From a virus: a stretch of DNA of 28,720 nt. The translations under genes and the position numbers were made by a program. Positions 9,880 to 19,098 of this stretch are shown one piece after another. Every line of letters starts with the position of its first letter. Position 1 is the first letter of the stretch. Under the pieces are notes generated by a model. That model saw only the letters and a program-made list of their open reading frames with translations, did no database searches and was not told the DNA's origin. The DNA lies in IMG/VR virus record IMGVR_UViG_3300020213_000095, positions 1 to 28,720 of that record. One strand, 5' to 3'.

Positions 9880-10574
9880 AATTACTATTAATTCTTTCAT
9901 TGCAGTGCTCCCTCGCTGTCTGTTACCCACCGACAGAAGAGGAGCCTGTGATGAATTCAGGGGAGTATGAAATATCAGCTCGCACCGAGCGAATGGCCGC
10001 TAAATTTGAAAATGAGATTCGCTCTGGGCTTTTACTTAAGAAAACAGACGACACTTTAAACGCGATTATTCGCTTAGCTGTTTATAAGCTAAAGCGCACC
10101 GGACACATAGCAGAAGGCACCCAGCTTTTAAAAGAATGGGAGAATCAATGGTCTGGCTATTTACTTAATAGGGGTATCGGCGACCATAGGCCACTTAGCA
10201 AGTGGCTCGCCGAAAAGACCGCAATGCTTGAACTCACTCTTGGTAAGCAAGCTATGCATCTGCTAAGACTAGACGATTTAATTACAATAAACTATGCACT
10301 CCCAGTTGTTATAAAATGCATAGATGAGGTAGACGTAGATGAATACGCAAGGCATTTCGTACATGATGAGGCAAACGGTTATCGTGGCCTTGGCCCCGTT
10401 GTTTCTTATTGGACTAGCTTCTTTGCTTGTGTTGGATTTACTTGGGGCACTGGCTTTTTATTTTGTGCGCCGATAGCCATGGGCGTGGAGTATCTGGTTG
10501 ATAACTTTGTTGCACCAAAACTCAATGAGCCACTTTGGAGGCGAGCATGCCATCAATCCCAGTATGGTTACTGA
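9876..10574 (+). CDS. Putative exported or membrane-anchored protein, unknown
   Basis: 232 residues. The N-terminus (MKLLLILSLQCSLAVCYPP) is a signal-like hydrophobic stretch; LAVC resembles a lipobox but has V at -1, so lipidation is uncertain. The middle is helical and charged (about 35-165). A second hydrophobic segment lies near 175-205 (VVSYWTSFFACVGFTWGTGFLF). This would give a periplasmic or membrane-bound protein. It is coupled to the preceding helical gene and overlaps the next start by 28 bases. I do not recognise the family; envelope exclusion, lysis or tail association are all possible. Confidence 0.55.
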   Translation: MKLLLILSLQCSLAVCYPPTEEEPVMNSGEYEISARTERMAAKFENEIRSGLLLKKTDDTLNAIIRLAVYKLKRTGHIAEGTQLLKEWENQWSGYLLNRGIGDHRPLSKWLAEKTAMLELTLGKQAMHLLRLDDLITINYALPVVIKCIDEVDVDEYARHFVHDEANGYRGLGPVVSYWTSFFACVGFTWGTGFLFCAPIAMGVEYLVDNFVAPKLNEPLWRRACHQSQYGY

Positions 10575-10789
10575 ATTTAATAATTCAGGTAGCAATTAAA
10601 GTAGGTCTCCCTTGGGTTATTACTAAGTTCCCAAAAATCCCAAGCGAAGTAGTTGCTATCATCGAACAACTAATAAAAGATTTAAACAACTCGAAAGTAA
10701 GCAATTCTGTTTCTAAAAAGATCGCGATTGCTATGGTTAGAAACCAACTACAAATTACACCGCAACCACAAGATTTAAAGAAAGGTTAG
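10547..10789 (+). CDS. Small helical protein upstream of and in frame with the tail fibre
   Basis: 80 residues from ATG 10547, supported by GGAGG at 10537-10541, five bases upstream. The first half is hydrophobic (IPVWLLNLIIQVAIKVGLPWVI), the second amphipathic and basic, ending PQPQDLKKG. It stops at TAG 10787-10789. The frame stays open after this TAG all the way through the tail fibre, so readthrough would fuse the two. Function unrecognised. Confidence 0.65.
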   Translation: MPSIPVWLLNLIIQVAIKVGLPWVITKFPKIPSEVVAIIEQLIKDLNNSKVSNSVSKKIAIAMVRNQLQITPQPQDLKKG

Positions 10790-10795
10790 TGCCTT

Positions 10796-13267
10796 ATTGC
10801 AACTACTTTAACGTATGGATTAAAGCTTCCTGTCACTGGGGATAAAGGTAGTGTTTGGTTTGTCGCCCTAGAAGGCAACATCACCCAACTCGATGCTCAC
10901 GACCATAACGGCACAAATTCCCCCCAACTTGGAAATGCGGCAATTCTTTCCTCTGCTGCAATTGCAAGAACAAAAATAGCAACTGGAACAGCTTATAGGG
11001 TTCTCGCAAATACTTCCGCTGGAGTGATGAGTGAAAATGCGGCGCTAACGTTTCATCGGGTTATAGTTGCTGACACTGGTGGGCAGCTAGCAAATAACGC
11101 AGCTCTCACAGCTGCTCACGTAATTTATGCCGACGCAAACGGGGAATTAGCTGGGGAAGCAACGCTTGCTAAGTCTCGCGGCGGCTCGGCTCAAGATAAT
11201 TCTTCGCTCACATTCCCTGCTACTGGAACACTAGCAACTATTGCCGGGGTGGAAGTATTCACTAACAAAGATATCGACGGCGGAACAGCTTCAAACTCAT
11301 CTCGTATTACCGTACCGAAAGCATCTCTTGCAACACTAGCCGCTCTCACAAGAAAAGAAGGCGTAATAGTTTATGCCTCAGATGTAGACAAACTATATAA
11401 AGATGACGGAGTCATTTTAACAGAGATTGGCTCTGGTGGTGGTGGTTCAATAAACTACATCTTAAACCCAGACGCCGAGGGTGATGTTGCAGCAGCACTC
11501 CCTAGCGGATGGGTAACATATCTCGATGCCGCTGGTACAACGCCAGTAAATGGCGTTGATGGAACAGCGGTAAGCACTTTCGTTGCAAGCTCAGATACAA
11601 CCCTTCGCGGCACAAAGAATTTACTATGGACTAAATCCGCAGCGAACAGACAGGGTGAAGGGTTCTCTTACCCATTCACAATTTCAGCCGCCGACCAAGC
11701 CAAGGTTCTAAACGTATCTTTCGACTACATAGCTTCAAGTGGAATGGTTGTTGGTAGCTTAGCTGATATGGCCGTGTGGATTTATGACATGGACAATTTG
11801 GTCCTTATCCCAGTGTCCCCGTATCAGCTCCAAGGTAACGGAACACTTCCAAACAAATTTACAGGCACATTTCAGACAAATGTAAAAGCAGCTTCGCCAG
11901 TAGCGCCCTTGCAATATAGATTAATCATCCACACATCTACCGTGAGCGCCGTTGCCTACACGCTTCGTATAGATAACGTAGTCGTGGGGCCACAGATCCA
12001 ATTGTACGGCGCTCCTATTAGTGATTGGGTTGCATACACACCTGCAAGTACACAAGGGTTTGGAACTGTAACCAGTGCAACTTTCTATTATAGAAGAGTA
12101 GGCGACTCGGTAGATTTAAAAGGGAGATTCAGTGCGGGAACCGTATCTAGCTCTGAATTAAGGATTAGTCTCCCAACTGGAATGACTTCCGCTGATTCTA
12201 CAAGAATAGACGGAACTGCCTCTCTATGTGGGTATGCAGTAAGAGGCGGCGCTGGGGCGCAGATAAATGACATATTAATTGAGCCCAGCGTAACCTATGT
12301 GACAATAGGACAGCAAGCCTCAGGAACTAGTGGGCTTACCAAAGCCACCGGCACCGGCGCTCACTCTAACAGCGAAGCATTCGCGTTCTTTGCAACTGTT
12401 CCCGTAGCAGGTTTTTCAAGCACGGTTTTGATGAGTAACGATACTGATACGCGAGTCGTGGCAGCGGTGGTATCGGGTGACGCGGCCTCTGCTACAGTAA
12501 ATAACCCAATCATTTTCCCAACTGTTGGTAGCGATACCCATTCGGCTTATTCGAATAGCACTGGTAAGTACACTGTGCCAGTCTCGGGTTACTACCAAAT
12601 CCAAGGAGCACTACAAAGCTCTACTGCTGGAGGTAGAAACATTTCTGTTTACGTTGATGCGGTAGCCGGTGCGTTCTTAGGATTAATACCAGCGTCATCG
12701 AATGGAACATTTGCCGGAATAGTAAAAGTAACCGCGGGGCAGCTTATTCACATCGGGGCTGATGGAACAATAGACGTTTCGGCAAATAGTAACATGTCTA
12801 TTTTCAGACTTACCGGCCCATCAGCAATTGCAGTAAGCGAAAGTGTAAATGCTAGATATACAATGAGTGCAGCTCAGGCAGTAACCACTACAGCAACAGT
12901 TATTGCCTATGACACAAAAACTTTTGATAGTCACAATGCCATGTCTGGAGGTACGTTTACTTGCCCTTCCAGCGGTAAATACCGGGTCACGGCGTCTACA
13001 GAGGAGGCGACTAACACAGGCGTTGTTGGCTCAAATTCAACTGTTTTGCAATTATATAAAGATGGCAGCAACTATTCAAATATTGCGTATATCATAAATG
13101 AAACCGTGCAAAACACACAAAGAGTTGTTAAGGGCTCCGACATCGTGAGCTGTGTGGCTGGAACGCTTCTCAAATTAATGATTTCAAGAAGTGCTGGAGC
13201 AAGCGCACATAACACCTCAACCGATACAAACTCAAATTATGTTTGCATTGAACGAATCGGAAACTAA
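10796..13267 (+). CDS. Tail fibre / receptor-binding protein (apparent ATT start)
   Basis: The first ATG/GTG-type start is GTG 11,024 (747 residues). The frame is open back to TAG 10,787 and encodes TTLTYGLKLPVTGDKGSVW and DAHDHNGTN, which match the usual N-terminus of such fibres as I recall them, normally begun by M-A-T/S. Here an ATT (10,796) occupies the methionine position, with GAAAGG upstream; full length would be 823 residues. Domains: N-terminal attachment part with short repeats (1-200); a jelly-roll/carbohydrate-binding-like module beginning NYILNPDAEG (about 225-400); a DWVAYTPAS-type module (about 410-540); and two C1q/TNF-like beta domains at the C-terminus. Role: host binding. 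Start codon unresolved. Confidence 0.75.
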   Translation: MATTLTYGLKLPVTGDKGSVWFVALEGNITQLDAHDHNGTNSPQLGNAAILSSAAIARTKIATGTAYRVLANTSAGVMSENAALTFHRVIVADTGGQLANNAALTAAHVIYADANGELAGEATLAKSRGGSAQDNSSLTFPATGTLATIAGVEVFTNKDIDGGTASNSSRITVPKASLATLAALTRKEGVIVYASDVDKLYKDDGVILTEIGSGGGGSINYILNPDAEGDVAAALPSGWVTYLDAAGTTPVNGVDGTAVSTFVASSDTTLRGTKNLLWTKSAANRQGEGFSYPFTISAADQAKVLNVSFDYIASSGMVVGSLADMAVWIYDMDNLVLIPVSPYQLQGNGTLPNKFTGTFQTNVKAASPVAPLQYRLIIHTSTVSAVAYTLRIDNVVVGPQIQLYGAPISDWVAYTPASTQGFGTVTSATFYYRRVGDSVDLKGRFSAGTVSSSELRISLPTGMTSADSTRIDGTASLCGYAVRGGAGAQINDILIEPSVTYVTIGQQASGTSGLTKATGTGAHSNSEAFAFFATVPVAGFSSTVLMSNDTDTRVVAAVVSGDAASATVNNPIIFPTVGSDTHSAYSNSTGKYTVPVSGYYQIQGALQSSTAGGRNISVYVDAVAGAFLGLIPASSNGTFAGIVKVTAGQLIHIGADGTIDVSANSNMSIFRLTGPSAIAVSESVNARYTMSAAQAVTTTATVIAYDTKTFDSHNAMSGGTFTCPSSGKYRVTASTEEATNTGVVGSNSTVLQLYKDGSNYSNIAYIINETVQNTQRVVKGSDIVSCVAGTLLKLMISRSAGASAHNTSTDTNSNYVCIERIGN

Positions 13268-13270
13268 ACA

Positions 13271-15925
13271 ATGCCCTATGATTTCTCCCCACCGTTAGAG
13301 GTATTGGATTTTAGTGGTGGTTTTTCAGATAATTATCTGGATGCTCCAATAAATCAGGGTCAGACATTTGAAAACTTCCTAATACAAAAAAATAAAAAGA
13401 TTCTATCTCGCTCTGGAACTTTAATATACGACTCCACCGCCTACCAAATCCCCGCTGGAAATCAGCGAATAGGCAGACTTATTTTTCACCCGCAAACTGA
13501 ATTGTTTGTTCAATCGGCGCGTGCGCTGTACTACATAAATTCTACATACCAGACCTTGGTCGGCCCCGTAGATTCTAACCCCGCATTTTCTTCAAACGCC
13601 ACAACGAATTACATTTCAGATTCTAGGTGGAAGAACCATGTTTACATGGTGTCTGATAGTTTTGCTGACCCAATAAAAGTTTATAAAGATTCCTCAAATA
13701 CATGGAGAGTAAATACAGCCGGACTCCCTTCGCTTGATTTAGAGGGCGCTGTTGATTTAGCAAACGCGATTAAAACTGCGTACAACCTCCACATTGCAGA
13801 TATCACGTCTAAGCACACTGCAGCCGATACCACGAATGCAATTGTTGCTGCTACATCCTATGATTTTGATACACTGGTTACACTCGTCACAGAGTTATTA
13901 ACTGATTTTGCTGCACATGATTTAGACGACGCAAGCGGAGCCGGTAGTTACCACCAGGCCGCTGGAGCCGCAGGCGCACTAACCTCGACAGTGGCGCCAA
14001 CAACTACCCAAGAGTGTATTACTAAACTTGCCGATTTAAGAACGCAGTATAATCGTCACGATAACGATGCGGCAGCACACACTACTGGCGGCGACAGATT
14101 AGTTACAGTCGTACAAACACCAGAGGTTACTGGCACTGTAGGAACCGGAAATTATCTTTATAAGCTTCACTATCGGCACACTTACACTGTTGGGACAGTT
14201 ACTTTTGAAGTACAAGGCGCAACACTTGAAATAAGCGGGCTTTTACTCTCAACCGGAACAAAAACGGTTTCTTCTATTCCTGCAATATCTAACGGCTCAA
14301 CTCGTTGTTACGACACTGCAACTATTACGTGTGACGTATATCGCACAGAAAACGCCGGGACTGTTTTTTACTACGTTGGGAGGGTTACTAATGGCACAAC
14401 GAGCTTTTCTGATACTGTTACTGACGCTGTCCTTGTTGATAATCCTACAATCTATACTAATGGCGGGGCTCTAGACCACGACACTCCCCCAAGAGCAAAA
14501 TTTATTCACGTTGTAAATAACACAACCATTTTTGCAAACGTCAAAGAAGGCTCCGTAAACTATCCCACAAGGTTTAGGCAATCTGTCCCTGGTTCCCCTG
14601 ACCACTGCCCGGAATCTTTGGGCGATGATGTTGAGATACCAATCACCGGATTAAATTCCGTTGGCCTTTACCCGATTATTTGCGGGCGAGATAGAACGTA
14701 TCGTCTCGAAGGTATCTTTGACGAGTTAGGAAGGGGAACCGTACAGTCGCGGGAAATTTCCAGAACCAAGGGAACTGTTTCAAATCTATCAATGGTGCAA
14801 ATTCCTGGCGGATTGGTATTTGCAGGTATTGACCAGTTTTATTTTACTGATGGGTATAGGGTTTCTCCGATAGATGTCCATCATGTGGAGAGTTATAAAG
14901 AGCTTGTTTCTCTAGCCGCGTATGAACAAAAAATTTCAGGGCGTTACGACTCTGCTGAAAACAGGGTCTATTGGTGTGTTGCAGACAAGACTACAAATGC
15001 GGATAATAATAAGTTATGGGTACTAGACCTTAACTTTCCAACAGCTCTTTCTCCGGAATCTACGTTTACCAAATTTTCAAACACTGACAGCTGGAGCCCT
15101 ACCGACGTAGAGTTTTATACTAACGCTTCTGCCATAAGAACTTTTGTAATTGCAGACACCAGGGGATACCTTTTTAAGTTTAATGATAATACGTTTACGG
15201 ACCCGGATATTAACACCGCTACTAACCCAAGCACATGGCCAACCAATCAGGTTATTTACAACTACAAATCTTTCGCAACTTCTTTTGGAACAGTCACTAA
15301 TTTTAAGTTTGTCCCGTCCATCACGTTACAAGCCAAAAATGTTGGCGACGTGACGGTACAGATTAATTCTAATAACGAAGACTCAGGGCTGTTTAAAGCT
15401 TTAAAGCCAATTCGCAAACGCGGCGGCATTACCTGGGGCGACCCAAACATACTCTGGAATTCTGGAAGCATTGAGTATCTATGGAACGTAAACGCTCTAA
15501 TACGAGAACTCAGACTTTTCCCAGCTGGAAATTTGCGTATGGTTTACAAACAAATCCAAATAACGAATGCGTACACAATCATTATTAACTCAGACACTTT
15601 TGGAACGGGTAACATTTCAGATAGTGCAAAAACGCTTACACTCACAGATGTTACACAATCCTTACCAACCGATATTGTAAATTACCATGTCAGCTTTGCT
15701 GCCGATTCTTACACAAAAGATTTTCAGATCCTAACCCGCAATTCCGCCACTGTTCTTACGTTCTCGGATGCAAGTAACCTATCTGTCACCGCAAGCGCCT
15801 CTGCGTGGGTTATTAAAGGATACCGAAAAGGGGAACAATTAAGCCTTCTTTCCTATACGCTCGCAAATGCACTGCTGGGCCAACACCAGACGGTTTACCG
15901 AGGGGAAACCGGGGGGAATGCCTAA
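13271..15925 (+). CDS. Large tail protein (nozzle/hub-like, beta-propeller character)
   Basis: 884 residues, starting three bases after the fibre stop. The N-terminus (LDFSGGFSDNYLDAPINQG) resembles openings of podovirus tail-tube or nozzle proteins. At about 165-275 there is a His/Asp-rich helical insertion with two copies of a YN-x-H pattern (AYNLHIADITSKHTAADTTN and QYNRHDNDAAAHTTGGD) that recurs in phage structural proteins. The later region (about 510-640; GIDQFYFTDGYRVSPID and AENRVYWCVADK) has repeated blade-like beta motifs. Together with the adaptor downstream, a tail nozzle or hub equivalent to P22 gp10 is the best fit; a tail accessory role is the alternative. Confidence 0.65.
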   Translation: MPYDFSPPLEVLDFSGGFSDNYLDAPINQGQTFENFLIQKNKKILSRSGTLIYDSTAYQIPAGNQRIGRLIFHPQTELFVQSARALYYINSTYQTLVGPVDSNPAFSSNATTNYISDSRWKNHVYMVSDSFADPIKVYKDSSNTWRVNTAGLPSLDLEGAVDLANAIKTAYNLHIADITSKHTAADTTNAIVAATSYDFDTLVTLVTELLTDFAAHDLDDASGAGSYHQAAGAAGALTSTVAPTTTQECITKLADLRTQYNRHDNDAAAHTTGGDRLVTVVQTPEVTGTVGTGNYLYKLHYRHTYTVGTVTFEVQGATLEISGLLLSTGTKTVSSIPAISNGSTRCYDTATITCDVYRTENAGTVFYYVGRVTNGTTSFSDTVTDAVLVDNPTIYTNGGALDHDTPPRAKFIHVVNNTTIFANVKEGSVNYPTRFRQSVPGSPDHCPESLGDDVEIPITGLNSVGLYPIICGRDRTYRLEGIFDELGRGTVQSREISRTKGTVSNLSMVQIPGGLVFAGIDQFYFTDGYRVSPIDVHHVESYKELVSLAAYEQKISGRYDSAENRVYWCVADKTTNADNNKLWVLDLNFPTALSPESTFTKFSNTDSWSPTDVEFYTNASAIRTFVIADTRGYLFKFNDNTFTDPDINTATNPSTWPTNQVIYNYKSFATSFGTVTNFKFVPSITLQAKNVGDVTVQINSNNEDSGLFKALKPIRKRGGITWGDPNILWNSGSIEYLWNVNALIRELRLFPAGNLRMVYKQIQITNAYTIIINSDTFGTGNISDSAKTLTLTDVTQSLPTDIVNYHVSFAADSYTKDFQILTRNSATVLTFSDASNLSVTASASAWVIKGYRKGEQLSLLSYTLANALLGQHQTVYRGETGGNA

Positions 15926-18681: not shown

Positions 18682-19098
18682 ATGCCACTTGGTGGATTGA
18701 TAGCAGCAGGGGTTCTTGGTGGGGTTGGGTTTGCTAAGGGTAAGTTGATTGACGAGCCAAAGGCTGACAAAAAAAGAGCGCTAGCGGCAGAAACCGCACG
18801 CTATTCCCCTTGGACTGGCATGACTCCAGGATCAGTACAGGAGGCAGACCCGTGGGGATCCGGACTACAGGGAGCAATGACAGGAGCAGCACTAGGGCAA
18901 AGTATTTCTAACGCCGATTCCGCAAGAAAATTTCAGGACGCACAGGCTGGTTATCTTAATCGTGGTGGCGGAGGCGGGGCTATTTGGGCTGGCATGCCGG
19001 GCGGCGCGGACGCCTATAGTGGTGGAGGGATGGGGATGGGGGGAACATCTCGGTATCCAAGTGGCTTTTCGTGGAACAAAAAAGGATTGATGGATTGA
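18682..19098 (+). CDS. Small glycine-rich virion-cluster protein
   Basis: 138 residues, one base after the previous stop, with AGGAG upstream. The N-terminus is a glycine-rich hydrophobic stretch (LGGLIAAGVLGGVGFAKG), which could insert in membranes; the second half is very glycine-rich (RGGGGGAIWAGMPGG, YSGGGMGMGG). Such proteins sit among ejection genes in podoviruses and may help form the DNA-translocating channel; this is inference from composition and context. Confidence 0.55.
   Translation: MPLGGLIAAGVLGGVGFAKGKLIDEPKADKKRALAAETARYSPWTGMTPGSVQEADPWGSGLQGAMTGAALGQSISNADSARKFQDAQAGYLNRGGGGGAIWAGMPGGADAYSGGGMGMGGTSRYPSGFSWNKKGLMD

Follow-up and report, generated by a model that had tools for sequence, protein, structure and literature searches.

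A phage tail fibre-like gene with a probable AUU start codon that recurs in its family

A probable start codon ahead of any standard start

The tail fibre-like gene described here is probably translated from an ATT codon at position 10796, with an 823-residue product, as judged from its sequence and from that of its relatives. It lies in the window, i.e. the whole stretch of 28,720 nucleotides analysed from the virus record IMGVR_UViG_3300020213_000095, whose phage also has genes for terminase, portal and major capsid protein. AUU starts are already known as a rarity; the noteworthy part is their recurrence within one phage gene family. In a comparison of 80 distinct N-termini from the family, the position of ATT 10796 is occupied by ATG in 73, by GTG in four and by ATT in three, and by no other codon.

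The frame of the fibre is open from the TAG at 10787-10789 to 13267, its in-frame stop occupying 13265-13267. The first in-frame GTG is at 11024 and the first ATG at 11027, with no ATG, GTG or TTG earlier, so that 76 codons (10796-11023) separate the ATT from the first standard start. Counted from the TAG, this stretch amounts to 78 codons and is the longest of its kind in the window, the runner-up among stop-to-stop frames of more than 100 codons having 43. A preliminary description of this DNA had given the positions of the TAG, the ATT, 11024 and 13267 and had mentioned the same-frame 80-residue gene, all of which proved correct on re-check. The relevant features are:

10547..10789, + strand: upstream gene of 80 aa, an ORF in the same frame as the fibre, ending at the TAG; strong Shine-Dalgarno (SD) site TGGAGGC
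10780..10785, + strand: weak SD-like GAAAGG, -3.6 kcal/mol with the anti-SD; aligned spacing to the ATT about 8 nt
10782..10795, + strand: small hairpin AAGGU-UAGU-GCCUU, -4.6 kcal/mol, z -1.66 on 25 nt; marginal
10787..10789, + strand: TAG closing the upstream gene, 6 nt ahead of the ATT
10796..10798, + strand: proposed fibre start ATT, aligned with ATG/GTG of 77 relatives and ATT of two others
10796..10951, + strand: conserved N-terminal fibre module (GDKGSVWF ... LDAHDHNGTNS), 43-57% identity to 14 relatives
10796..13267, + strand: fibre-like gene, 823 aa from the ATT, with a C1q-like domain at about 12482-12604
13271..15925, + strand: 884-aa gene of tail/virion structural type, also present behind the fibre N-module in relatives

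A search for an upstream promoter found none, and the exact junction pattern had zero matches in viral contigs.

The codons ahead of the first standard start encode a conserved fibre module

The 76 codons from the ATT begin with IATTLTYGLKLPVTGDKGSVWFVALEGNITQLDAHDHNGTNS, and the first codons of the fibre encode TTLTYGLKLPVTGDKG together with DAHDHNGTN. Both motifs are conserved across many other phage contigs, which bears out the earlier perception of a recognisable fibre start upstream of 11024. The N-terminal 50 residues are common to many uncultivated phage contigs and have no confident Pfam or PHROG family match, while a C1q-like domain is found near the C-terminus (PF00386, E=5.5e-7; phrog_15750, E=1.2e-9). 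Annotated phage genomes yielded no DNA match and a sole protein match, weak and C-terminal; GTDB genomes contained one relative, with an ATG start. By tblastn, the N-module is followed by a homologue of the 884-aa gene in L253, L254, L036, L062 and L114, and the homologue of that gene in L076 matches the tail appendage family phrog_8094. The fibre itself combines the shared N-terminal module with a variable C-terminal body and adjoins tail genes. The synteny and the tail-appendage match therefore make "tail fibre" a reasonable label, based on architecture rather than on a curated family match. In the two other phages with ATT, a short separate protein makes up the N-module, and the body with the C1q domain is encoded kilobases off by another gene (coordinates in L253, 2450-2827 and 4312-6243 (minus); the same holds for L254); in the window module and body are fused in one gene (10796-13267).

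These observations bear directly on a start at GTG 11024 or ATG 11027, which would produce a truncated fibre and leave the preceding 76 codons as a remnant. These two are the first standard starts, which a gene caller limited to such codons would choose, and a GGAG is present just before them. However, its spacing of 0-2 nt is too close, the homologues begin at 10796 with their strongest conservation within the 76 codons, and the fibre frame runs uninterrupted through them. Homologues starting at the residue equivalent to 11024, which the preliminary description had named as counter-evidence to its reading, were sought and none occurred. Truncation is thus considered very unlikely.

ATT recurs at the family start position

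The three carriers of ATT are the window, L115 (contig 3300046018_000240; identical with L076) and L116 (3300049844_000134). L189 is entered under ATG, the codon that aligns there. Some of the 80 N-termini are closely related to each other, and a 66-row tree yields the same three ATT cases; the census leaves out a few new loci from the last viral contig scan, the contigs of which were nearly the same as in the preceding scan. The ATT rows fall in separate places on the tree, with three changes, at least two of which are forced by supported branches (the alignment being short and the forks weak), and ATT therefore arose at least twice. The nearest relatives of the window fibre have ATG at the aligned codon. 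AUU is thus present in more than one independent sequence, L115 and L116 lying on separate branches; the window's own phage is a single record. Aligning the fibre start to relatives, as had been proposed as a check, shows that homologues begin exactly at 10796, two of them with ATT. What counts for initiation at the ATT is that this codon is the start position of the family and that ATT occupies it in two other lineages; these two distant relatives therefore make a real weak start probable, as against an error or readthrough.

In control genes, homologues of the capsid (28) and portal (30) have standard starts throughout, and for the 884-aa gene a single row of 160 (L250; redundant set) showed no start within the limits searched, although its sequence has an in-frame GTG there.

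In L115 the ATT is preceded by TTAGGAGGTGCCCA, overlapping the end of the upstream gene, and in L116 by TAAGGGAGGTGTCCC; in both contigs it lies 6 nt past AGGAGG/GGGAGG. The SD energies are -11.5 kcal/mol for L076/L115 and -12.6 kcal/mol for L116, ranking fourth and first of 65 family members. If ATT is disallowed, only 76-77 residues are left of the 125-residue proteins of L115 and L116. A general habit of these phages to use ATT was considered and rejected, as the other large genes of both contigs have normal starts. The sequence GTG(C/T)C(C/T) precedes all three ATTs, beginning exactly 7 nt before (window 10789-10798; L076:2488-2497; L116:1494-1503), which may be chance.

The initiation site of the window is weak

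SD strength is split among the ATT members, being high in L115/L116 and the weakest of 65 fibre starts in the window (-3.6 kcal/mol), which thus lacks the compensating SD of the other two. The hairpin at 10782..10795 holds the SD in one arm and the TAG in the loop, its end abutting the ATT; it is lost or not significant in longer folds. As modelled, such pairing with the spacer may cover the window SD. A hairpin as a device shared by the ATT members was also entertained: its ranks by energy are 1, 3 and 23 of 66, and given these uneven ranks and the instability in longer folds it is not claimed. The points counting against the ATT are the weak SD, the possible hairpin over it, the coverage of this base by a single record of the phage, and the one-base distance from ATG, which would also be expected of an error.

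If translation starts at ATT 10796, the initiator tRNA would read AUU as methionine and the protein would begin (M)ATTLTYGLKLPVTGDKG, with ribosomes of the window phage initiating there at a low rate. Given the weak SD and an upstream gene that ends only 6 nt ahead of the ATT, the supply of ribosomes would probably come from re-initiation after the TAG at 10787-10789. Ribosomes are known to re-initiate beside a stop codon, also close to an upstream stop without a strong SD, and where mutant initiator tRNAs match them, codons other than AUG can serve (PMC2268962). The AUU would then act as a brake, holding fibre output low relative to the neighbouring virion genes. A stronger version of this proposal sees the ATT as a selected dosage control: it arose repeatedly, it stands immediately behind the spacer GTG(C/T)C(C/T), which could pair with the SD, and it would be made accessible by ribosomes that complete the upstream gene, thereby tying fibre synthesis to that gene. 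This version is offered tentatively, as an unlikely elaboration.

Readthrough and recoding

The fibre shares its frame with the upstream gene, and only two codons lie between TAG and ATT, an arrangement inviting the idea that ribosomes pass the TAG at 10787-10789 and fuse an 80-residue leader to the fibre. No relative has such a fusion, however, and the upstream protein is not conserved, a search for its relatives among viral contigs having found none. The window has TAG as its in-frame stop and L116 has TAA, whereas the upstream gene of L115 is in another frame; with stop identity and frame differing in this manner, readthrough cannot be the common cause. Programmed readthrough would be expected to keep an in-frame stop between two stretches of one frame among the relatives, and these do not display it. 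The TAG is followed by T, a context in which termination is strong in E. coli. No tRNA genes were found in the window, which is thus without a suppressor tRNA; TAG also closes other genes normally, in agreement with the earlier view that a recoded genetic code is unlikely. Taken together, readthrough appears extremely improbable. A frameshift from another frame was set aside as not needed, the three ATT members having no common arrangement.

Sequencing, assembly or variant artefact

The dominant phage might instead have ATG at 10796, the record carrying a wrong or rare T from sequencing, assembly or a minority variant. Consistent with this, the nearest relatives have ATG, one substitution away, and contigs from two samples break around the fibre-start region. 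Of these near-identical contigs, L018 ends at 10293, shortly after a dense run of differences (10220-10241), and L001/L059 begins only at 10847, so assembly is difficult around 10293-10847. Read error is retained as a rival because no near-identical contig covers 10294-10846. Against it, the same codon is found at the same place in two distant contigs, none of the 80 N-termini shows another non-start neighbour of ATG, and a chance error is unlikely to have yielded the exact codon of two other lineages. Moreover, comparison with two strains, with a divergent patch at 13.5-14.0 kb left out, gives eight window-only differences in about 10.8 kb, seven of them synonymous; these look more like real variation than errors, and errors would thus be rare here. 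Between the window and its near-identical contigs, start and stop codons are unchanged in every strain compared, and most strain differences are synonymous. Nevertheless, the SD is not strengthened in the window, which keeps an artefact in consideration, as an unlikely explanation but the main rival.

The same comparisons show patches of high divergence at 13564-13963 and 18688-18854 of the window against L059/L060, otherwise 98-99% identical, which suggests recombination or diversifying segments. A short direct duplication of ~48 bp at 878-1054 is seen as double alignments of L019.

The preliminary description had left four options unranked. Initiation at the ATT is now clearly preferred, given the homologues that start at 10796, two of them with ATT; readthrough and truncation find no support, and a read error is kept as the rival with the low probability given above.

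Significance and comparison with known systems

With gene callers restricted to ATG, GTG and TTG, the window fibre loses 76 residues, the conserved N-terminal module among them, and its 125-residue homologues in L115 and L116 lose about 40%. A family with recurring AUU starts also offers a natural test of how the strength of a start codon governs the amount of a virion component.

Phage T4 gene 26 has an internal AUU start giving a second, shorter product, 26*. Like the window fibre, this would be AUU initiation in a phage tail gene, but the 26* start is internal and makes an extra product, whereas the window ATT would be the sole start of the main product. M13 gene VII has an AUG start, in contrast to the ATT of the window fibre. 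The coupling of M13 genes V and VII nonetheless presents a comparable arrangement, with a start adjoining the upstream stop, a poor SD and supply by re-initiation (PMC2268962); in the window such coupling would be a prediction from the layout.

Among bacteria, AUU is a working start in infC (PMC5472188), and an AUU start in Yersinia is supported by a mutational test (PMC10191623). E. coli infC (IF3) and pcnB share the AUU start with the window fibre and have low output; infC is autoregulated by IF3, whereas the fibre is a virion gene with nothing tying it to IF3 control. In S. aureus cvfC1, AUU with an extended SD gives an output of about 10% of that of AUG (PMC13009471). The SD ahead of its AUU is strong, which also holds for L115 and L116, while the window instead has a weak one.
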